Below the pieces are notes generated by a model. It was not told where the DNA came from and ran no database searches. It worked only from the letters and a program-made list of their open reading frames with translations. A stretch of DNA of 64,000 bases from Ancylomarina subtilis (GTDB lineage Bacteria; Bacteroidota; Bacteroidia; Bacteroidales; Marinifilaceae), in contig NZ_SHKN01000001.1 in NCBI RefSeq assembly GCF_004217115.1, positions 372,001 through 436,000 on the forward strand, given 5' to 3'. Made by a program: the position numbers and the translations under genes. This document shows, one piece after another, positions 6,398-20,670 of this stretch (the first letter of the stretch is position 1; each line of letters begins with the position of its first letter).

Positions 6398-7558
6398 ATG
6401 AATCATTTCGAATATAAAAACCCAACCAAAATCATTTTTGGTCAAGACAAGATTACTGAATTGGCAAAAGAGATTCCTGCAAAGGCAAAGGTTCTGATTC
6501 TTTATGGAGGAGGAAGCATTAAAAGCAATGGTATTTACGATCAGGTTAAAACTGCTTTGGCTGATTTTAATGTGATGGAATTTGGTGGAATTCCTCCAAA
6601 TCCTGAGTACGCTGTTTTGATGGATGCATTGGATTTCATTAAATCGAATGAAATAAACTTTCTTTTAGCTGTTGGAGGGGGATCGGTTATCGATGGAACG
6701 AAATTTCTTGCGGCTGCAGCTTACCATGAAGGCGAAACACCCTGGGATATTTTAACGAGTAGAAAACCGGTAATGAAAGCCATGCCTTTTGCTTCTGTAT
6801 TGACACTTCCGGCAACGGGTTCGGAAATGAATTCCGGAGCTGTAGTAACCCGAAATGAGACCAGGGAAAAGCTAGCTATGGGTGGCCCTGCATTATTCCC
6901 TCAGTTCTCAATTCTCGATCCTCAGGTTATTCAATCCATTCCTGAGAGACAAATTGCCAATGGTTTGGCAGATGCTTTTACGCACGTTTTGGAGCAATAT
7001 CTGACCTATCCAACTGATGTTTTATTGCAAGATCGATTTGCTGAGAGCATCCTGCAAACTCTGATTGAAGTGGCACCAAAGATACTGAAGGATCCGAGTG
7101 ATTATAAGGCTGCATCCAATTTTATGTGGAGCTGTACTATGGCCTTAAATGGTCTGATTTCACAGGGCGTGCCTTCCGACTGGGCAGTGCATGCAATGGG
7201 CCATGAATTAACCGCTCTTTTTGGAATCGATCATGCCCGCACCTTAGCCATTATTGCCCCTAGTCATTACAAGTACAATATGGGAAGTAAAAAAGAGAAG
7301 CTGGCTCAATACGCCGAGCGAGTTTTTAACATCAGCGATGGCAGCATCGATGAGAAAGCACTTGCAGGTATCGATGCTACAGAATCGTTCTTCCATTCTT
7401 TGGGAATTCAAACAAAACTCTCAGAGTATACACAAGATTATAAAGGAACATCAGAATTAATTTCCGAACGCTTTACCGAACGTGGCTGGATGGGAATTGG
7501 TGAGCGAGGCAGTTTAAGTCCAGGTGATGTGGCGAAAATTGTCGAGATGGCTTATTAA
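6398..7558 (+). CDS. Iron-containing alcohol dehydrogenase, YqhD/BDH type
   Basis: This 386-residue group III alcohol dehydrogenase reduces aldehydes with NAD(P)H. It shows the nucleotide motif GGGSVIDGTKF and the metal ligands Asp and His in GLADAFTHVLEQY. Two more His ligands lie in the segment AMGHELTALFGIDHARTLAI. Similarity is closest to butanol dehydrogenase/YqhD, which scavenge short-chain and lipid-derived aldehydes. It lies 51 bp behind the MDR reductase in the same direction and is probably in that transcript. Confidence 0.93.
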   Translation: MNHFEYKNPTKIIFGQDKITELAKEIPAKAKVLILYGGGSIKSNGIYDQVKTALADFNVMEFGGIPPNPEYAVLMDALDFIKSNEINFLLAVGGGSVIDGTKFLAAAAYHEGETPWDILTSRKPVMKAMPFASVLTLPATGSEMNSGAVVTRNETREKLAMGGPALFPQFSILDPQVIQSIPERQIANGLADAFTHVLEQYLTYPTDVLLQDRFAESILQTLIEVAPKILKDPSDYKAASNFMWSCTMALNGLISQGVPSDWAVHAMGHELTALFGIDHARTLAIIAPSHYKYNMGSKKEKLAQYAERVFNISDGSIDEKALAGIDATESFFHSLGIQTKLSEYTQDYKGTSELISERFTERGWMGIGERGSLSPGDVAKIVEMAY

Positions 7559-7623
7559 GAGTTGGTGTTGACAGTAATAATTAATTATAAAATTTAATTC
7601 AGATGTTATTAAAAACAGGAATC

Positions 7624-8307
7624 ATGAATATTCTATTTGTATTAACCTCTCATTCGCAAATGGGAGATACAGGACATAAAACAGGTTTTTGGGTTGAAGA
7701 ATTTGCCAATCCATATTACGCGCTTCTTGATGCAGGAGCGAACATTACAATTGCGACCCCAAAAGGAGGGGCTGCCCCAATCGATCCAACTTCGGATTTG
7801 CCACAGAACAGCACGGAAGATACCCAACGATTTAAGAATGACGCAGCAACTCAGAAAAAGATCAATGAAACTCTGGCTTTAGCCGATATTAATTTTGAGG
7901 ATTACGATGCGGTATTTTACCCCGGAGGTCATGGACCGCTTTGGGATTTGGCAGAGGATCCTATTTCAGCAAAGCTGATTCAGGATTTTGATGCGGCTAA
8001 TAAACCCATTGCCTTTGTGTGTCATGCACCGGCTGCATTGCGCCACGTTAAGAATGCTGAAGGCGACTATCTAGTGAAGGGAAAGAAGGTCACAGGCTTT
8101 AGCAACGAGGAAGAAGAAGCGGTTCAGCTAAGCGCGATTGTTCCATTCCTGGTTGAGGATATGCTAAAAGCGAATGGTGGTATTTATTCAAGAGGCAAAG
8201 TATGGGAAGCTTATGCCCTTGAAGACGGCAACCTGATTACAGGCCAAAATCCAGCCTCATCGGCTCTTGTTGCTGAAATATTATTGAAGAAATTGCAAAA
8301 GAAATAA
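7624..8307 (+). CDS. DJ-1/PfpI family protein, Hsp31-like glyoxalase/deglycase candidate
   Basis: I place the start at the ATG of MNILFVLTSH (7624); an in-frame ATG at 7603 would add seven residues. The protein has the alpha/beta flavodoxin-like fold of the type 1 glutamine amidotransferase group. It has PGGHGPLWDL and the nucleophile elbow AFVCHAPAAL with the reactive Cys. Hsp31-like members act as glutathione-independent glyoxalases on methylglyoxal or as chaperones. Clustering with aldehyde and enal reductases fits carbonyl-stress defence. The activity is inferred from family and context. Confidence 0.88.
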   Translation: MNILFVLTSHSQMGDTGHKTGFWVEEFANPYYALLDAGANITIATPKGGAAPIDPTSDLPQNSTEDTQRFKNDAATQKKINETLALADINFEDYDAVFYPGGHGPLWDLAEDPISAKLIQDFDAANKPIAFVCHAPAALRHVKNAEGDYLVKGKKVTGFSNEEEEAVQLSAIVPFLVEDMLKANGGIYSRGKVWEAYALEDGNLITGQNPASSALVAEILLKKLQKK

Positions 8308-10513: not shown

Positions 10514-10894
10514 AGTTGCTGATTTTTAGAAGTTTTGATCTCAAAACCTTTTGAATAGTCTATTTTATCAGTATAGATAAGCAATATATATCGAATCAAA
10601 GTACAAAAAATAATAGGATTTGAAATAGATTGTGAGATAAAATGTTCTTAAAGATTTTAGGCAGAAATATTTCGTCGAATATAAAAGTTTCTTTTAGTCT
10701 GGTAAGGTGAAATCTACAATAAACCTTAAGATTGAGTTTGTTATCTATTTTTCAAGAGTGCGAAAAACAGATGCGTATCTGTCAGAGTTAGATTGATAAT
10801 TTTATTTATCTGGTTGATGAAGAAGGATATATTTTTATTATATTTAAGATAATTTATTCATTATGTTATTTTATTGGTGCTGATTTTTTGCAAT
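10514..10894. other. Divergent intergenic region, no gene seen
   Basis: About 380 bp of AT-rich DNA between the divergent kinase and lipocalin genes. It must hold both promoters, but I find no exact TAnnTTTG match, no strong hairpin and no plausible small reading frame. Confidence 0.5.
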
Positions 10895-11458
10895 ATGAGA
10901 AGAATATTAAAATGTCGTTCAATTATAATTGTTGTAATCCTTATTGGCATCGCTTTTACAGGATGTAAAACTCAGAAGCGAATGGTTGACAATACAGTAG
11001 TCCGGGAATTAGATATTAACAGGTACCTGGGCACATGGTACGAAATTGCAAGATTCGATCATCGTTTTGAACGAGGGCTTGTTGGAGTTACAGCGAATTA
11101 CAGTATGCGCGATGATGGCAAAATACAGGTGATTAATAGTGGCTATAAAAATCGTTTAGATGGGGCGTTTTCAGAGGCAATAGGTAAGGCCAAGATTCCC
11201 GACCCTGAGAATGAGCCTGCCAAGTTAAAAGTGTCATTTTTCTTGTTTTTTTATGGTGATTACTTTGTTTTAGAATTAGATGATGATTACCAATGGGTCA
11301 TTATTGGGAGCAGTTCAGATAAATACCTTTGGATTTTGAGTCGTACGCCTCAAATTGAGAAAGACTTGTACACAGCTTTGCTTGAAAACCTGAAAAGGCG
11401 TGGCTATGATATTTCGAAATTATTGAAGGTTGAGCAACAAACCAATATTAAAGATTAA
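10895..11458 (+). CDS. blc: Outer-membrane lipoprotein of the bacterial lipocalin family (Blc-like)
   Basis: I choose the ATG at 10895 (MRRILKCRSI) over the upstream TTG at 10874 because it begins a clean lipoprotein signal ending in GIAFTGCKT, with Cys as the lipidated residue. The lipocalin signature RYLGTWYEIARFDHRFERG follows, then the strand pattern and WILSRTPQI, typical of Blc/apolipoprotein D. These small barrels bind lipids such as lysophospholipids at the outer membrane. It is followed after about 130 bp by a lipid-metabolism operon, possibly by functional association. Confidence 0.9.
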   Translation: MRRILKCRSIIIVVILIGIAFTGCKTQKRMVDNTVVRELDINRYLGTWYEIARFDHRFERGLVGVTANYSMRDDGKIQVINSGYKNRLDGAFSEAIGKAKIPDPENEPAKLKVSFFLFFYGDYFVLELDDDYQWVIIGSSSDKYLWILSRTPQIEKDLYTALLENLKRRGYDISKLLKVEQQTNIKD

Positions 11459-11587: not shown

Positions 11588-13387
11588 ATGTCTAAAATTG
11601 ACACTTTTGAAATAAATGGAAAATTTCTTTACTATGCTTTTGTTGCTGGTGGAAATCAAATTCTTCAAAATCAAGTCGAATTAAATGCGATAAATGTTTT
11701 CCCTGTAAATGATAATGATACAGGGACTAATCTTGCTTCTACGGTTCGTTCAGTTATTGATAATATCAAACCTCATAAGTCGTATAAAACAACTGTAAAT
11801 AATATTGCTGATGCCGCATTAACTGGGGCCAGAGGAAATTCGGGTGTTATCTTTGCCCAATTTTTACATGGCTTGAGTCGTGAAACTCAAAATAAAGCGA
11901 GTATTACCTTTTTTGAATTTGCTGAAAGTGTAAAGAAGTCGATCCCCTACATTTATGAAGCTATTGCCATTCCTATTGAGGGGACCATGTTGACTGTGAT
12001 TAAAGACTGGGCAGAATTCCTGACTTGTAAGAAAGGGATCATTTCTGATTTCAAGAAAATAATGATAGATTCTCTGGTTGTCCTGGAGAAATCATTGGCT
12101 GAAACGACTTTGAAATTGAAGGCTTTAAATAAAACGGGCTTTGTTGATGCGGGAGCAAAAGGTTTTGTTCTTTTTGTAAAAGGGATTATTGATTTCATAA
12201 GCGATTGGAATATTCGGACTTTGAAAGTTGAATTAACTGAAACGATTTCTCTTGTTCATTCTGAGAAGATGACGGACGAAGAAATAACTCACCGTTTTTG
12301 TACCGAAGCCATTTTAAAGAATATCAATATTACTAAAAAAGAACTTCAGGAGATATTGACTGATCGCGGTGATTCAGTTGTTGTTGCAGGGTCGGAAAGT
12401 ATTTGTAGAATTCATTTGCACACCAATCAACCAGCTGAACTTTTCCATCATTTGAAAGATATGGGAACGATCACATATCAAAAGGTGGATGATATGCTTC
12501 GTCAACACGAGGTGCTTACCAAACGTAAATGGAATATTGCTCTTGTTACGGATTCGACTTGTGATTTGTCGCAGGATCTAATCGATTATTATCAGATTCA
12601 TGTAGTGCCTCTTAATTTAAATTTTGGCGATTATTATTATTTGGATAAGGTCACCATTCAACCCAATCGATTCTACGATTTGCTTGAGTCCAGTTCAGAA
12701 TTTCCAAAAACATCTCAAATAAACGAACAGACATTTACCAATTTGTATTCGCATTTGGCTTCGCATTACGATGCTATTATCGCCTTACACCTAACCAGTG
12801 AGTTTAGTGGCACTTATTCGAATAGTTTAAAGGCAAGCGAGCGAATAAAAAAAGAATTTAATAAACCCGTTCATGTTATCAATTCGAAGAATTTATCAGG
12901 AGCACTCGGCTTATTGGTTCTGAAAACGGCTCAAAATATTGAAGCTGGAGAATCGCTTGAATCGATTATTGAATCGCTTGAGCGAGATGTTAGAACAACA
13001 AAAATTTTTGTCAGCGTAAGAGATTTAAAGCATATGATCAGGGGAGGACGCGTTTCCAAGCCCAAAGGTTTCATAGCCCGTTTGATTGGTTTAAATCCGA
13101 TTGTTTCGATGGATAAAAATGGAAAATCACTTCTATTTGGAAAAACGTTTAGCCAACAAGCCAGTTTGAGAAAAATATATTCACATATAAAACGAATCGG
13201 ACATGGAAAATCGGTTTGGAACTATATTATTCTTCACGCTCACAATCCTGAGGGGGGGCAAAATGCTGAGGACAAAATGTTTGAGATTACGGGAAAGAAA
13301 CCCGTTTCGGTAATGGATATTTCTCCGGTAATTGGTATGCATGCAGGAAATGGTGCCATTGCCATAGCCGTGTTGTTTAATCACTAA
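11588..13387 (+). CDS. Fused fatty-acid kinase: FakA-type kinase (DhaL and middle domain) joined to DegV/FakB fatty-acid-binding domain
   Basis: This 599-residue protein joins two parts that are separate proteins in Firmicutes. Residues 1-200 are a DhaL/DAK2 kinase domain: NVFPVNDNDTGTN carries the Mg/ATP-binding Asp42, Asp44 and Asn48, and GARGNSGVIF lies at 80-89. Residues about 225-310 match the FakA middle domain (GDSVVVAGSE, then IHLHTNQP with His276 and His278). Residues about 315-599 are a DegV fold: LVTDSTCDLS, the fatty-acid-contacting KTSQ, SEFSGTYSNS and MIRGGRVSK. The family phosphorylates DegV-bound fatty acid to acyl phosphate. PlsY, which consumes acyl phosphate, is encoded three genes downstream. 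The usual PDGDTG is NDNDTG here, with both Asp retained. Confidence 0.9.
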   Translation: MSKIDTFEINGKFLYYAFVAGGNQILQNQVELNAINVFPVNDNDTGTNLASTVRSVIDNIKPHKSYKTTVNNIADAALTGARGNSGVIFAQFLHGLSRETQNKASITFFEFAESVKKSIPYIYEAIAIPIEGTMLTVIKDWAEFLTCKKGIISDFKKIMIDSLVVLEKSLAETTLKLKALNKTGFVDAGAKGFVLFVKGIIDFISDWNIRTLKVELTETISLVHSEKMTDEEITHRFCTEAILKNINITKKELQEILTDRGDSVVVAGSESICRIHLHTNQPAELFHHLKDMGTITYQKVDDMLRQHEVLTKRKWNIALVTDSTCDLSQDLIDYYQIHVVPLNLNFGDYYYLDKVTIQPNRFYDLLESSSEFPKTSQINEQTFTNLYSHLASHYDAIIALHLTSEFSGTYSNSLKASERIKKEFNKPVHVINSKNLSGALGLLVLKTAQNIEAGESLESIIESLERDVRTTKIFVSVRDLKHMIRGGRVSKPKGFIARLIGLNPIVSMDKNGKSLLFGKTFSQQASLRKIYSHIKRIGHGKSVWNYIILHAHNPEGGQNAEDKMFEITGKKPVSVMDISPVIGMHAGNGAIAIAVLFNH

Positions 13388-13397
13388 TTTGAAACCC

Positions 13398-14174
13398 ATG
13401 TTAACTATCTTTTTACAAGGATCGCTTATTATTTTTATTCTGGTAACACTGCTATGGGTATTAAGTGTTATGCTAACAAATGCAAGTATTGTTGACCTGT
13501 TTTGGGGATTTGGTTTTGTAGTGGTAAATGCCTTCTATTTTTTGGTTTCTGAGGATTTTAATTTACGAAAAATACTATTACTGACTCTCGTGACAATTTG
13601 GGGTTTACGACTTTCCATTTACCTTTCGTGGCGGAATATTGGTAAGGGTGAAGATTTCAGATATCAAAAATTTAGGCAAGATTATGGCCCGAAACGCTAT
13701 TGGTGGTTTAGTTATTTTCAGGTTTTTATATTGCAAGGTGCTTTAATAATGCTTGTTTCATTACCCTTAATGGGTACTAATCTTTGGGAACAATCTGATA
13801 CGCTAATCTGGTTAGATTATTTGGGGATTGTGGTTTGGTGTATTGGTTTTCTTTTTGAGGCAGGAGGGGACTTTCAGTTGGCTAGGTTTAAAAAGAATCC
13901 TCAAAATAAAGGGAAGGTATTGAATACTGGGTTTTGGAAGTATACCCGTCATCCCAATTATTTTGGCGATTCGGCTGTTTGGTGGGCATATGCAATATTT
14001 TCAATAGCTGCCGGAGCTTATTGGCCTATTGTTGGTTCTGTTTTAATGACTGTGATTATTATTAAGATTTCCGGAGTTGCTTTGCTCGAAAAAACATTGA
14101 ATAATACGAAACCTGAATACTATGATTACATTAAAAAAACGAGCTCATTTTTCCCTTGGTTCCCCAAAAAATAA
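13398..14174 (+). CDS. DUF1295 membrane protein (steroid-reductase/ICMT-like fold)
   Basis: The ATG at 13398 (MLTIFLQGSL) is preferred to an upstream TTG at 13389. The protein has about six transmembrane helices. The C-terminal signature KYTRHPNYFGDSAVWWAY followed by PEYYDYIKKTSSFFPW marks DUF1295, related to 5-alpha-steroid reductases and isoprenylcysteine methyltransferases. Such enzymes act on lipids in the membrane with NADPH or SAM. It starts about 11 bp after the fatty-acid kinase and 4 bp before the next gene, so it is within the operon. The substrate is unknown. Confidence 0.88.
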   Translation: MLTIFLQGSLIIFILVTLLWVLSVMLTNASIVDLFWGFGFVVVNAFYFLVSEDFNLRKILLLTLVTIWGLRLSIYLSWRNIGKGEDFRYQKFRQDYGPKRYWWFSYFQVFILQGALIMLVSLPLMGTNLWEQSDTLIWLDYLGIVVWCIGFLFEAGGDFQLARFKKNPQNKGKVLNTGFWKYTRHPNYFGDSAVWWAYAIFSIAAGAYWPIVGSVLMTVIIIKISGVALLEKTLNNTKPEYYDYIKKTSSFFPWFPKK

Positions 14175-14177
14175 ATT

Positions 14178-14918
14178 ATGCTTGATTATTTGAGTTCGAA
14201 TATTTGGTTTGTGCTTTTCTTCGTTTGGGGGCTGCCCTTAGGTTTCTATCGAAGTAAGTTTCGTAAAATCGTATACCAAACCGATAGTTGGACAATCAAT
14301 ATCAAACCCGTTTTCATGAAAGAACTTAAAGGACTTTTCGGTAATATTTACCCCGATAATAAAAAATACAAGAAGTTTAGAAACTTCTATTTGTTTTATT
14401 TATCCATTTATTTTGTTTTGAGTACAAGCTTTGTAGTTTTTAAAGATAATCCTGAGAAGATGAAAAAAATTGAAATAGGAAGTTCAGTACCAGTTTTTGA
14501 ATTAAAGGATCAAAACGGGGAGTTGTTTCAGCTTATATCCGTATTGGGGAAGAAAAATTTGGTGATTTATTTTTACCCCAAAGATGATAGCCCGGGTTGT
14601 ACCAAGGAGGCTTGCGCTTTTCGAGATCAATTTGAAGTGTTTGAAGAAGCCGATGCTCTGATTATTGGAATTAGTGGGCAGTCGGTTGCGAGTCACCTGG
14701 ACTTTGCAACAAAATACAAGCTGAACTATACGCTACTTAGCGATAAGGGAAACAAAGTGCGTAAACTTTTTGGTGTTCCTGGTAATTTATTCGGATTGAT
14801 TCCCGGAAGAGTGACTTATCTCGTAAATAAGGAAGGGAAGGTGATTTATATGTTTAATTCTCAAATACAAGCTGAGAAACATGTTGATGAAGCCTTACGC
14901 ATATTACAAGAATTATGA
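14178..14918 (+). CDS. Membrane-anchored peroxiredoxin, BCP/PrxQ type
   Basis: This 246-residue protein has an unusual N-terminal extension (1-94) with two hydrophobic segments (8-22 and 70-88) around a basic loop. A complete BCP/PrxQ peroxiredoxin follows from Met95 (MKKIEIGSSVPVF). The active site DDSPGCTKEACAFRD contains the peroxidatic Cys and the resolving Cys five residues later, as in E. coli Bcp. The extension would place the thiol peroxidase at the membrane, fitting lipid hydroperoxide removal in a lipid operon. An internal start at 14460 could also give a soluble form. Its stop overlaps the plsY start (ATGA). Confidence 0.88.
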   Translation: MLDYLSSNIWFVLFFVWGLPLGFYRSKFRKIVYQTDSWTINIKPVFMKELKGLFGNIYPDNKKYKKFRNFYLFYLSIYFVLSTSFVVFKDNPEKMKKIEIGSSVPVFELKDQNGELFQLISVLGKKNLVIYFYPKDDSPGCTKEACAFRDQFEVFEEADALIIGISGQSVASHLDFATKYKLNYTLLSDKGNKVRKLFGVPGNLFGLIPGRVTYLVNKEGKVIYMFNSQIQAEKHVDEALRILQEL

Positions 14919-15517
14919 TGAGTTTAAGTCATGAAATATTATTCGTTTTATTTTCCTATTTACTAGGAGCAATACCTATGGGTTATCTATTAACTAAGCG
15001 ATTTGCAGGGAAGAATATACTCGAATTAGGTAGTGGGAATATCGGTTCAACAAATGTAAGGCGCATAGCCGGAAAAAGACTTTCGATTGTAACACAAGTT
15101 CTGGATATGATAAAAGGGCTTTTACCCATTGCTTTGTTTATGTGCTTTGATGATAAAGCGTCAGCTTCTTCAAATTTTATTTATTTTTTGGCTATAGCTG
15201 CGATTATGGGACACAATTTTAGTCTCTTTTTAAAATTCAGAGGAGGTAAGGGAGTTAATATTAGTTTGGGCGCATCCTTACTGCTTGCTCCTTATTCTGT
15301 TTTGATTTCGGTAATGGTGTATTTTCTTGTGAAATGGCAGTTTAAATATGTTTCGTTAGGTTCCATACTATTGGGAATTTCACTACCAATTACTGAACTT
15401 ATTATTCACGGTTTAACATCCACATTTTATTATTTATGCATTTGTTGTTTTCTGATTATCATGATGCATATCAAGAATATTGGTCGTTTATTAAAGAATA
15501 AAGAACTCATTTCATAA
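14915..15517 (+). CDS. plsY: Glycerol-3-phosphate acyltransferase PlsY
   Basis: PlsY transfers an acyl group from acyl phosphate to glycerol-3-phosphate, making lysophosphatidate, the first step of phospholipid synthesis. This 200-residue polytopic protein has all three family motifs: GSGNIGSTNVRRIAGKR (39-55), GHNFSLFLKFRGGKG (99-113) and MHIKNIGRLLKNKE near the C-terminus. The start overlaps the peroxiredoxin stop by 4 bp, suggesting translational coupling. Clustering with an acyl-phosphate-producing kinase is functionally coherent. Whether this is the only plsY of the genome cannot be told here. Confidence 0.94.
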   Translation: MMSLSHEILFVLFSYLLGAIPMGYLLTKRFAGKNILELGSGNIGSTNVRRIAGKRLSIVTQVLDMIKGLLPIALFMCFDDKASASSNFIYFLAIAAIMGHNFSLFLKFRGGKGVNISLGASLLLAPYSVLISVMVYFLVKWQFKYVSLGSILLGISLPITELIIHGLTSTFYYLCICCFLIIMMHIKNIGRLLKNKELIS

Positions 15518-15535
15518 GCCTTAAAACCTCAATAT

Positions 15536-15997
15536 ATGGGATTTTTTCAATTTCAGCGAGAACAGATCATTCATGCTTCCATGGACGAAGTTTGGGATTT
15601 TATAAGTTCACCTCAAAATTTAAAGAAAATTACTCCGGAGTATATGGGCTTCGATATTCGCACTCCCAATGCTGCAGACAAAATATACGAGGGAATGATC
15701 ATTCGTTATACGGTTCGGCCCTTATTAGGTATTAATACCAATTGGGTTACAGAGATCACGCACGTCGTTGATAAATCGTATTTTGTGGATGAGCAGCGAG
15801 TTGGTCCTTATGCCTTCTGGCACCATCAACATAGAATTGTACAGACTGAAGAGGGAGTGTTAATGAGAGATATTGTCAGTTATAAACCTCCATTGGGTTT
15901 TCTTGGTAGCATTGCCAATTCACTATTCATTGAAAAAATGTTAAAACAGATATTTGATCACAGAACCAAAGTGTTTGAAAAATTATTTCCATTATGA
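15536..15997 (+). CDS. SRPBCC (START/Bet v 1-like) family protein
   Basis: This 153-residue protein has the SRPBCC start pattern: ASMDEVWDFISSPQNLKKIT, then strands and a C-terminal helix (MLKQIFDHRTKVFEKLF). The fold binds hydrophobic ligands such as lipids, polyketides or quinones. It is the last intact gene of the lipid operon, 18 bp after plsY. A broken gene begins inside its stop codon (ATGA overlap). No catalytic residues can be assigned; a lipid-binding role is inferred from fold and neighbours. Confidence 0.82.
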   Translation: MGFFQFQREQIIHASMDEVWDFISSPQNLKKITPEYMGFDIRTPNAADKIYEGMIIRYTVRPLLGINTNWVTEITHVVDKSYFVDEQRVGPYAFWHHQHRIVQTEEGVLMRDIVSYKPPLGFLGSIANSLFIEKMLKQIFDHRTKVFEKLFPL

Positions 15998-18473: not shown

Positions 18474-19154
18474 TTAGACTTGAAATAAAGGCGAAAAATC
18501 AACATAGGGTGATTCACCTATCTTGAATTCAGGAATTTCGACGATTGGACATTTGTAACCAAATTTACTTAAGTAAGTTCTGAATACCTCGATGGAATCC
18601 TCCAGAATCAGATCGCTGTTGTTAGGGTAGTGGTTGTAGATCAGCCCCTGAATGGGCAGTTTTCTATGATAGGCCAATTCTAATGTCATTAAAGTATGGT
18701 TGATGCTCCCAAGCTTTGATGAGGTGATCAGAATCAGAGGGTGTTTCTTTTCCTCAAGATAATCCAGAAGAGAATATTCCAGCGTAATGGGCACGTGAAG
18801 ACCACCTACGCCTTCAATTAAAAGTGTTTCATACTGATCCTGAAGTTGCTTTGTTGAAGCATTTATGACATCCATATCGATTTCCTGTCCATCAATCTTG
18901 GCTGCCAAGTGCGGCGAAGCCGGATATGTAAATACGTAAGGACAAGTGGTTCCGTCCTTATCCACATCGTAGGGTTTAACTCCCATAATATCCCGATGAG
19001 CCAGTATATCTTCTGAAATACCAACGCAACCCGTTTGAGCAAACTTTTGGGTCATCACATTTACCTTTTTATTAAGAAGGTATTTTGCCATTAAACCCGT
19101 AGCGAATGTTTTTCCGGCATCCGTGTCAATTCCTGTAATAAAGTAAGTGCTCAT
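18474..19154 (-). CDS. bioD: Dethiobiotin synthetase BioD
   Basis: BioD closes the ureido ring of dethiobiotin from DAPA, CO2 and ATP. The start is set at MSTYFITG (19154), the usual family start; an open frame continues upstream but has no similarity. Motifs seen are the P-loop GIDTDAGKTFATG, LIEGVGGLHVPI and ILITSSKLGSINHT. Length (226) is normal. It is the last gene of a five-gene biotin operon in the order bioA-bioF-bioG-bioC-bioD. Confidence 0.94.
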   Translation of the reverse strand: MSTYFITGIDTDAGKTFATGLMAKYLLNKKVNVMTQKFAQTGCVGISEDILAHRDIMGVKPYDVDKDGTTCPYVFTYPASPHLAAKIDGQEIDMDVINASTKQLQDQYETLLIEGVGGLHVPITLEYSLLDYLEEKKHPLILITSSKLGSINHTLMTLELAYHRKLPIQGLIYNHYPNNSDLILEDSIEVFRTYLSKFGYKCPIVEIPEFKIGESPYVDFSPLFQV

Positions 19155-19212
19155 TATAATTAGTGATTTACAATTTGTGATTGAGGATTCAAGTTGAATA
19201 TCTTTATTTCCT

Positions 19213-19986
19213 TTAACCTTTAACCTTGACTTTCGGTTTTGCAATAAAATAGATGGGCTGGTAACTCAAGGGAACACCCAATTCGATACCAAAAAGATCC
19301 TTATAGCGTTCTTCAAAGTTTTTTAAATCGGTTTTGGTCCATACCTTTCCGGGTAAGCCATTCACGCCGGTTCGTTTCATATGATGCAGAACTTCGATCG
19401 GTTCAGGAAAATGTCGGGTGATGATTTCTTTCTCGCTCCAAATCACATCGAAATGTTTTTCGAGAAGTTTCAGATGTTCATTAAAGGACAGATAGTTAAG
19501 TCCACTGCCTTCAACAGCTCTAATTTCGCGGTAGTTTTCAGGGCCAAAACTGCTAAACGCCAGAAAACCATTTTTTGAAAGAGCGGTATGACATTTTTGA
19601 AGAAAAGCATCCAAATCGTGAAACCATTGAAAGGTTGAACCCGATAAAATGAGATCCAGATTTTGAGGCAATTCAGAGCTTTCAATATCTCCGCCCATAA
19701 ATTGAATTTTGGGATTTAGAGCTTCCAAAACGGGGGCGTATTCTTCTACAATGTCGTTTGCCAGGTAAGTATCAGCATCGAAGAATTGGAAAAACTTTTC
19801 AGTTAATACAGCAGGTCCGCAACCGATCTCCAAAACCGAATGATGATGCTCAGGACAACGCCACCTCATCTCAGCAATCAAACGAGAAGCAATGGCTTCC
19901 TGAACAATAGCGTGCTTGCGATAGGTTGTGATGCTCTTCACAAATCCTTTCTGAACCTTATCTTTATTTATTTTCTGGTTGCTCAC
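19213..19986 (-). CDS. bioC: Malonyl-ACP O-methyltransferase BioC
   Basis: A class I SAM methyltransferase of 257 residues with the SAM motif VLEIGCGPAVLT, the acidic loop SGSTFQWFHDLDAFL and the BioC-typical start KVQKGFVKSITTYRKHA. BioC methylates malonyl-ACP so that fatty-acid synthesis can build the pimeloyl chain. It lies between bioG and bioD. An alternative would be a generic methyltransferase, but the WFHDLDAFLQKC region and context support BioC. Confidence 0.93.
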   Translation of the reverse strand: MSNQKINKDKVQKGFVKSITTYRKHAIVQEAIASRLIAEMRWRCPEHHHSVLEIGCGPAVLTEKFFQFFDADTYLANDIVEEYAPVLEALNPKIQFMGGDIESSELPQNLDLILSGSTFQWFHDLDAFLQKCHTALSKNGFLAFSSFGPENYREIRAVEGSGLNYLSFNEHLKLLEKHFDVIWSEKEIITRHFPEPIEVLHHMKRTGVNGLPGKVWTKTDLKNFEERYKDLFGIELGVPLSYQPIYFIAKPKVKVKG

Positions 19987-20004
19987 CCTTTATTTATTGA
20001 CTTT

Positions 20005-20670
20005 TTAAGACTTTAATATCTCATCCCATTTATCCCAATGGTAAAAACAAAAATGAGGCAGGTCAAGAATCTGCTTGTTTGCTTTATTCTCCCAGGCTTT
20101 TTCCAGGTTATTAAATGGAAAAATTATATCTCGTGACGAAAGTAATACCTTATCGAAAATATCCCAAGTAATTGGCTGGCTCAAAATCATGTTTTGCAAA
20201 CAGATCAATTCTTCCTTTTGATCTTCAACCTGACGTTGAGGTAGCTGTTGGGCAAAGTCTGCGTATCCTGAACGACCTCCGCACATGCGCATGAAAAATT
20301 TGTCGCGGCCTTTTTCGTTTAGCCCATCAATGGTGCCCTGAAATATGGCTGGCGGAATGCCTTGTTCCTCATCAATGGGGGAAAGACTACCATTAATCGC
20401 AAGCTGACTTCTGAAAAGGTTTTTATCTTCTTTAAACAGATGTGAACTGACGAATACACCCAACGACCAGGCAATCAGATGGCACTCCTTATAGGATTTA
20501 ATTTCCTCCCTTAATTCCTGAACCTGGCTTAAATCACGATAATCGTAGCACATAAGGACGTCATATTCATTCGCCTTAATTTTAAGGAATGGCAGTTCGT
20601 CGCAGCCCCAACCGCTCATAAAGAGGATGAGTTTTGGTGAATTGTTTTTGTGTAAATATCTAAATTCCAT
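20005..20670 (-). CDS. bioG: Pimeloyl-ACP methyl ester esterase BioG (DUF452)
   Basis: An alpha/beta hydrolase of 221 residues. It has the DUF452 start (LILFMSGWGCDELPF), the nucleophile elbow LIAWSLGVF with catalytic Ser, and a C-terminal LPHFCFYHW with the catalytic His. BioG removes the methyl group added by BioC, ending pimeloyl-ACP synthesis, and replaces BioH. It is placed between bioF and bioC, 18 bp upstream of bioC in the reading direction. Function follows from family and context. Confidence 0.9.
   Translation of the reverse strand: MEFRYLHKNNSPKLILFMSGWGCDELPFLKIKANEYDVLMCYDYRDLSQVQELREEIKSYKECHLIAWSLGVFVSSHLFKEDKNLFRSQLAINGSLSPIDEEQGIPPAIFQGTIDGLNEKGRDKFFMRMCGGRSGYADFAQQLPQRQVEDQKEELICLQNMILSQPITWDIFDKVLLSSRDIIFPFNNLEKAWENKANKQILDLPHFCFYHWDKWDEILKS

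Follow-up and report, generated by a model that had tools for sequence, protein, structure and literature searches.

The analysis concerns a 64,000-nt stretch of contig NZ_SHKN01000001.1 of Ancylomarina subtilis (the window, whose positions are used below) and, within it, a tightly packed operon that opens with a putative fatty-acid kinase built as one chain. The 599-residue protein joins the kinase and middle domains of FakA to a complete DegV fold, the fold of the binding protein FakB. It is followed by genes for a DUF1295 membrane protein, a peroxiredoxin, the acyltransferase PlsY and an SRPBCC-type protein, with a lipocalin gene upstream (Table 1). The spacing is close throughout: 1 bp between kinase and DUF1295, 3 bp between DUF1295 and peroxiredoxin, a 4-bp overlap of peroxiredoxin and PlsY, and 18 bp between PlsY and the SRPBCC gene. 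A first-pass annotation had placed PlsY in the same tight operon, with the 4-bp overlap with its neighbour; both points were confirmed, and the protein scores above the TIGR00023 cut-off. Promoter and terminator scans gave counts equal to the shuffled level, and are hence uninformative.

Table 1. Genes and protein domains of the operon, in window positions (E, expectation value).
Feature	Positions	Strand	Evidence
One-chain fatty-acid kinase candidate (FakA kinase + FakA middle + FakB/DegV), 599 residues	11588..13387	+	Open reading frame, Pfam, AlphaFold model, structure comparison
DAK2/DhaL-type kinase domain, residues 39-201	11702..12190	+	Pfam Dak2 E 3.8e-28; VIA-align Z 33.6 to 8vit
FakA-like middle domain, residues 235-308, with C238, H276, H278	12290..12511	+	FakA-like_M E 3.1e-18
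Complete DegV/FakB domain, residues 317-596	12536..13375	+	DegV E 4.1e-72; profile positions 2-278 of 280
DUF1295 integral membrane protein, RHPNYFGD motif	13389..14174	+	DUF1295 E 1.7e-69
PrxQ/Bcp-type peroxiredoxin, N-terminal extension with predicted hydrophobic segment	14178..14918	+	AhpC-TSA E 6.4e-31
PlsY acyl-phosphate:glycerol-3-phosphate acyltransferase	14915..15517	+	TIGR00023 equivalog, 148 bits vs cut-off 137
SRPBCC-type (polyketide cyclase/lipid transport superfamily) protein	15536..15997	+	Polyketide_cyc E 5.2e-6
Blc-like lipocalin lipoprotein, possible unit member	10874..11458	+	129 bp upstream of kinase

Relatives were drawn from several samples. The GTDB family of the window's genome (Marinifilaceae, the own family below) was searched in 56 genomes, 14 of which fail our quality cut, and the phylum was represented by 247 genomes drawn evenly from Bacteroidota. 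A contig scan with a profile built from 14 aligned one-chain proteins supplied the best 80 loci among the matches listed: 39 one-chain, 35 split FakA and 6 broken or cut. Six loci (two split into two frames, four cut by a contig end or without a full frame) were omitted from trees and residue counts. The one-chain set for residue counts comprises 64 proteins; neighbours were counted at 63 loci besides the window, nine of them from the own family.

The domain composition of the 599-residue protein provides the basis for its assignment. The motifs named in the first-pass annotation are all present (D42/D44, which we take from DhaL and FakA to be the Mg-binding aspartates, together with HLHT, TSQ, SGTY and GGR), and on alignment the catalytic residues of the kinase site are intact. 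Residues D42, D44, H276, H278, S407, G487 and R488 are invariant across 37 aligned one-chain proteins, and C238 is kept in at least 90% of them. By sequence, the second half is nearest among solved proteins to DegV/FakB chains, and the first half to FakA of the Streptococcus suis FakA-FakB2 complex (PDB code 7w7h). C238, H276 and H278 align with the same residues of that FakA and correspond by motif to Cys240, His282 and His284 of the Staphylococcus aureus protein. PMC9136124 describes FakA as a nucleotide-binding domain, a linker domain (Cys240, His282, His284) and a C-terminal domain, the last being related to FakB and devoid of the three insertions by which the fatty-acid tunnel is formed. 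It was correct to say that DegV stands in place of the FakA C-terminal part, with the qualification that this part is already a tunnel-less FakB relative. The near-full cover of the DegV profile in the window protein is taken to include the tunnel-forming insertions.

The predicted fold agrees with this composition. An AlphaFold model built from 37 one-chain sequences (the window protein and 36 scan loci) has a mean pLDDT (predicted local distance difference test) of 90.0 and a pTM (predicted template modelling score) of 0.85, the linker 214-229 being poorly predicted. Its DegV half aligns with the seven best DegV/FakB chains over 265-282 residues (Z 33.7-34.7), and some of the further DegV/FakB structures listed as matches were crystallised with a named fatty acid. 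The kinase half matches the FakA N-terminal domain 8vit (Table 1), and the top Foldseek match is the 7w7h FakA chain. Pfam domains, model and structure matches together bear out the fusion of FakA kinase and middle domains with a complete DegV fold.

Comparison with the split enzyme reveals where the one-chain protein departs from it. According to PMC9136124, FakB Arg173 is required for catalysis, and the FakA C-terminal domain docks FakB through FakB's own Arg205 wedge, which doubles as the membrane-binding surface. Counted by hand along the alignment to solved structures, R488 of the window protein corresponds to FakB1 Arg173, and arginine stands there in 64 of 64 one-chain proteins. The Arg205 position is occupied by F521. 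It is hydrophobic in 56 of the 64 one-chain proteins and arginine in eight (L051, L060-L063, L176, L180, L187). At the same place 10 of 12 standalone DegVs carry Arg or Lys, and all four solved FakBs carry Arg. Such a replacement in the one-chain proteins is as expected if binding protein and kinase share one chain. With F521 at the wedge and a DegV domain where FakA has its C-terminal groove, the docking pair of the split enzyme is missing, which sets the window protein outside the split FakA/FakB type, while the remaining Fak features that were tested are present. Judged by sequence, the protein is a variant of Fak that lacks, of the features tested, only the surfaces by which the split enzyme docks. 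As a separate observation, the standalone DegVs of families f29 and f16 (L064, L065, L066, L069, L070) have lysine in the column of the FakB catalytic arginine, and the FakA middle domain was not found in the f16 genomes; it is probable that these DegVs do not partner a kinase.

The fusion is widespread rather than a local oddity. The DegV domain occurs in 17 of the 247 phylum genomes, 15 of which have it in a one-chain frame (605-657 codons); nine of those 15 also hold a standalone DegV, and the other two DegV genomes have the standalone form only. Going by record titles, the one-chain proteins among the best 80 loci, many of them from metagenome-assembled genomes (MAGs), belong to some 15 phyla, with representatives in Bacteroidota, Chlorobiota, Neomarinimicrobiota, Aminicenantes, Calditrichota, Acidobacteriota, Gemmatimonadota, Spirochaetota, Gammaproteobacteria and Bacillota. 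One-chain loci of Vagococcus, Enterococcus, Halanaerobium and Clostridiales mean that the separation of kinase and binding protein, ascribed to Firmicutes in the first-pass annotation, is not universal there. The kinase of Labilibaculum filiforme is 71-72% identical to the window protein, and the 36 aligned one-chain proteins of other bacteria range from 24 to 71%. An assembly or frame artefact was rejected, as a frame of about 600 residues with identical domains recurs in 24 other search loci and in 39 of the best 80; a fusion specific to Bacteroidota was likewise rejected, the one-chain form being found across other phyla.

How often the fusion arose was approached through two trees. For the kinase half the 64 one-chain rows were cut to 54 by omitting nine close relatives and L187, a divergent Thermoleophilia locus; these 54 and 36 split FakA rows fall on opposite sides of one branch, whose support is low (53), and the tree contains three very long one-chain rows. 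The DegV tree holds 34 one-chain domains, 12 standalone DegVs and eight FakA C-terminal domains. Here the one-chain domains do not form one group (three label changes for 34 rows, with four deep-phylum rows outside), so that a single fusion event is not shown. Descent of the FakA C-terminal domain from a fused DegV could not be read, the eight FakA C-terminal domains sitting on one very long branch (2.31).

Within the own family, kinase, PlsY and DUF1295 occur as a set. PlsY (PF02660) is found in 17 of the 56 genomes, the FakA middle domain in the identical 17, each time in a frame of 597-614 codons, and full-length DUF1295 (232-250 bits) in exactly those 17, all remaining matches scoring at most 36 bits. 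Sixteen of the 42 genomes that pass the quality cut have the set, a count to be read with the caveat that draft assemblies may hide a cassette of a few kb. The neighbourhood is kept in relatives. By coordinates, no more than about 3 kb separates kinase and PlsY in any of the 17. One genome, G258, breaks the linkage of DUF1295: there the gene co-occurs with the kinase at a distance of about 181 kb, and no match to other cassette proteins was found in the surrounding 16 kb. Both presence and absence of the cassette are seen inside genera g1, g126 and g134. In 39 of the 56 genomes (G249, G285 and G314 among them) neither PlsX nor PlsY nor kinase was found, which marks the cassette as accessory. 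Proteins with PF01553, in three size classes (about 600, 380-400 and 190-216 residues), are present in all six own-family genomes examined; they are only candidates for the first acyltransferase of these relatives.

The same searches bear on PlsX, the enzyme with which PlsY is paired in the PlsX/PlsY route. PlsX (PF02504) is matched in none of the 56 own-family genomes, and by the same search in 17 of 18 other Bacteroidota genomes. In the window's own genome no PlsX was found and the window PlsY is the sole PF02660 match, so no source of acyl-phosphate other than the one-chain kinase can be identified for it, a tighter link between the two than had been proposed from the operon. The aaPlsY substrate-binding residues named in PMC5700162 (Ser35, Thr41, Arg45, His92, Lys104, Ser142, His177 and Asn180) correspond, counted by hand along the alignment, to S40, T46, R50, H100, K112, S150, H185 and N188 of the window protein. 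Each of the eight is kept in 12 of 12 own-lineage PlsYs, a table that omits L190, L170 and three second PlsYs (L100-L102). Own-lineage PlsYs form a branch separate from other Bacteroidota PlsYs (SH-aLRT, an approximate likelihood-ratio branch support, 99; stem 1.88) in a quick tree that contains other long rows and omits L040, L042 and L043.

Gene neighbours across phyla point to the same partners. When the first partner on the kinase's strand and no more than 350 bp downstream is counted, DUF1295 follows the kinase in 22 and PlsY in 11 of the 63 one-chain loci, one or the other thus in 33; neither was found at any of the 36 split-FakA loci. The count scores as "other" L183, where PlsY does follow and its frame start was called too early, and L170, a Spirochaetales MAG in which DUF1295 and PlsY lie divergently just upstream. 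Pairing with DUF1295 spans Bacteroidota, Aminicenantes and Bacillota; pairing with PlsY spans Bacteroidota, Neomarinimicrobiota, Calditrichota, Gammaproteobacteria and one Parcubacteria MAG. In the Enterococcaceae loci L163, L172 and L179 (Vagococcus, Enterococcus), DUF1295 stands directly after the one-chain kinase.

DUF1295 itself is placed tentatively, by its profile matches, in the steroid-reductase/ICMT superfamily. The window protein reaches 35.7 bits with PF02544 (cut-off 22.6) and 22.8 bits with ICMT, under the cut-off of 24, and R187, H188, P189, N190, Y191 and G193 are present in 26 of 26 proteins. The RHPNYxGD motif is associated with sterol reductases. A PDB sequence search with the protein gave no solved relative at E 0.1, and in the literature the name DUF1295 appears, at the level of search listings, as a single mention per paper. 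That it is a membrane reductase acting on an acyl chain or a lipid is a guess. In the 247-genome sample, matches at E 1e-25 or better occur in 6 of the 15 genomes with a one-chain frame and in 17 of the remaining 232 (Fisher p about 0.001, kinship ignored). Constant association with the kinase was rejected, as only 6 of the 15 have such a match and no f13 or f29 fusion genome is among them.

The peroxiredoxin and SRPBCC protein are the least certain members of the cassette, given their recurrence in 12 and six loci. The peroxiredoxin is near the kinase in L040-L045, L047, L048, L055, L146, L147 and L152. It lies between DUF1295 and PlsY in eight of the nine own-family loci read and in L146 and L147, after DUF1295 in L055 and after the kinase in L152; it was not found in the kinase neighbourhood of G258, G228 or three f19 loci. 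Its description as a membrane-anchored peroxiredoxin holds for the enzyme class, the anchor resting on one predicted hydrophobic segment (residues 70-88). The SRPBCC gene follows PlsY in L040-L044 and L146 only. A lipocalin gene precedes the kinase in four of the nine own-family loci read and in L152. Lipocalin genes also stand beside one-chain kinases or cut pieces of them in L152, L158 and L151 (Neomarinimicrobiota, Cloacimonadota and Bacteroidales MAGs); with this recurrence the lipocalin may be a real member of the unit. In L041, L042 and L043 a 135-residue open reading frame that the window does not have lies between lipocalin and kinase, and the L041 copy is a DUF2177 membrane protein.

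The results so far are observations, on architecture and predicted fold as well as on residues, conservation and co-occurrence; how the parts would work together can now be proposed. We consider it likely that the cassette encodes a PlsX-independent salvage or recycling shunt that leads from free fatty acid through acyl-phosphate to lysophosphatidate by way of the one-chain kinase. The 599-residue protein would phosphorylate free fatty acid, and PlsY from the same operon would transfer the acyl group to glycerol-3-phosphate. Without PlsX the acyl-phosphate would not be exchanged with acyl-ACP (acyl carrier protein). The shunt would be accessory and feed position 1 of the glycerophospholipids, DUF1295 would form part of the module, and the housekeeping first acylation would have to rely on another enzyme. 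A precedent from Firmicutes, Fak supplying PlsY with acyl-phosphate without PlsX, is described in PMC13245860. The fatty acids may derive from outside the cell or from turnover. The salvage part of the "salvage and repair route" of the first-pass annotation is consistent with the genomic evidence; a repair role of the peroxiredoxin is speculative and not supported, the gene being missing near the kinase in some relatives (G258, G228 and the three f19 loci).

Several results weigh against this proposal. We infer that the enzyme is active, and likewise its substrate, the direction in which flux would run and its role in the cell. Whole-chain superposition on S. suis FakA is poor (TM-score 0.33-0.37, root-mean-square deviation 24.8), which leaves the arrangement of the domains unconfirmed. 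All four solved FakBs have a histidine aligned with H585, but only 47 of the 64 one-chain proteins and 6 of the 12 standalone DegVs keep it. The basic wedge, which FakB also uses to bind membranes, is lost, and this raises the question of how fatty acid is loaded and the membrane contacted. Joint presence and absence of kinase and PlsY could be explained by physical linkage alone. In 30 of the 63 one-chain loci neither DUF1295 nor PlsY lies within 350 bp downstream. PlsX and PlsY are also unmatched in the control Bacteroides ihuae, and their lack is thus not peculiar to the own family. Among the 15 other Bacteroidota genomes with the fusion, PlsX is found in 14 (not G125) and PlsY in all 15, adjoining the kinase in the three f19 genomes only. 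With PlsX in most of these genomes the kinase could feed PlsX there as in Firmicutes, which confines the PlsX-independent reading to the own family.

The nearest alternative accepts the chemistry and changes its purpose: kinase and PlsY would recover fatty acids released by internal lipid turnover or thioesterases, with no special external role. We regard this as quite possible, if short of probable. Fak recycles endogenous chains in Enterococcus faecalis and thioesterase plus Fak can substitute for PlsX in some Firmicutes, according to PMC12594616 and PMC13245860, respectively, and a Pfam scan identified no fatty-acid importer in the operon; the Blc-like lipocalin upstream of the kinase, in the window and four own-family relatives, points outward and is weak evidence against it. 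A wider version of the shunt, in which kinase, DUF1295 and PlsY form the core of a cross-phylum lipid-salvage module, mainly Gram-negative and PlsX-independent in the own family, with DUF1295 reducing or otherwise editing the same acyl chain before or after phosphorylation, is rather doubtful. If true, it would give the DUF1295 family a function and overturn the view of acyl-phosphate activation as a Gram-positive trait. A further alternative changes the substrate. The DegV half might bind another lipid (an isoprenoid or modified acid, for example), and the operon would then build or edit a special lipid, the key reductase or methyltransferase being DUF1295. The 22 of 63 against 0 of 36 occurrences, the identical own-family profile and the tentative superfamily of DUF1295 speak for this, but both fold and catalytic arginine agree with those of FakBs that bind fatty acid, and PlsY instead of DUF1295 follows the kinase in 11 further loci, so that we hold it to be unlikely.

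Still less credit goes to an oxidative-stress repair operon, in which peroxiredoxin and DUF1295 would reduce damaged chains for kinase and PlsY to reinstall. The place of the PrxQ-type peroxiredoxin between DUF1295 and PlsY in eight of nine own-family loci, and its presence near the kinase in L146, L147, L055 and L152, would fit such a function; G258, G228 and the three f19 loci, however, have the kinase with PlsY or DUF1295 and no peroxiredoxin nearby. It seems equally improbable that the genes form a recently moved, marginal accessory island and are together only through joint travel. The patchy presence in g1, g126 and g134 and the kinase-PlsY distance of at most about 3 kb in all 17 genomes are what joint travel would leave behind, but DUF1295 is unlinked in G258 and yet co-occurs, the kinase-DUF1295 pair is found in other phyla too, and the active-site residues are intact in 12 of 12 own-lineage PlsYs.

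Elsewhere in the window, two groups of genes were identified by eye. At 6398-8307 lie an iron-type alcohol dehydrogenase and a DJ-1/PfpI-like protein, a pair possibly for aldehyde detoxification that is matched in L040 only among 33 loci read. On the minus strand, 18474-20670 holds biotin-synthesis genes (BioD-like, BioC-like and a BioG-like hydrolase).

The PlsX-independent shunt through a one-chain kinase, if correct, would bear on how fatty-acid activation is divided among bacteria. The review PMC10146087 and the paper PMC12594616 present Fak as the Gram-positive strategy and acyl-thioester formation as the Gram-negative way. A literature search at the level of titles and the starts of abstracts, mostly of non-subscription papers, found no description of a one-chain Fak. 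A complete one-chain kinase in many Gram-negative phyla, in one family coupled all-or-none to PlsY without PlsX, would change this picture, and would offer a one-protein system for acyl-phosphate chemistry. It would also give a testable hypothesis for DUF1295, and the question of what makes lysophosphatidate in the relatives that yielded neither PlsX nor PlsY becomes sharper.

Comparison with known systems places the window protein closest to the Fak of S. aureus and S. suis (7w7h), with which it shares the kinase domain, the Cys-His-His middle domain, the FakB fold and the catalytic arginine. Unlike split FakA and FakB it is one chain, with a full FakB domain where FakA has its tunnel-less FakB-like C-terminal domain (PMC9136124) and phenylalanine in place of the docking Arg205. 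The one-chain DAK2-DegV proteins of Labilibaculum, Neomarinimicrobiota, Aminicenantes, Vagococcus, Lysobacter and others have the same domain order and similar length, whereas their gene neighbours vary between DUF1295, PlsY, both and neither. The operon resembles the PlsX/PlsY route in having a PlsY with the eight named substrate-binding residues, and differs from it in that the search of the genome yielded no PlsX and the PlsY stands on a branch separate from those of other Bacteroidota. With the acyl-CoA and acyl-ACP synthetases of Gram-negative bacteria the proposed kinase would share the activation of free fatty acids; those enzymes, however, form a thioester and not an acyl-phosphate.

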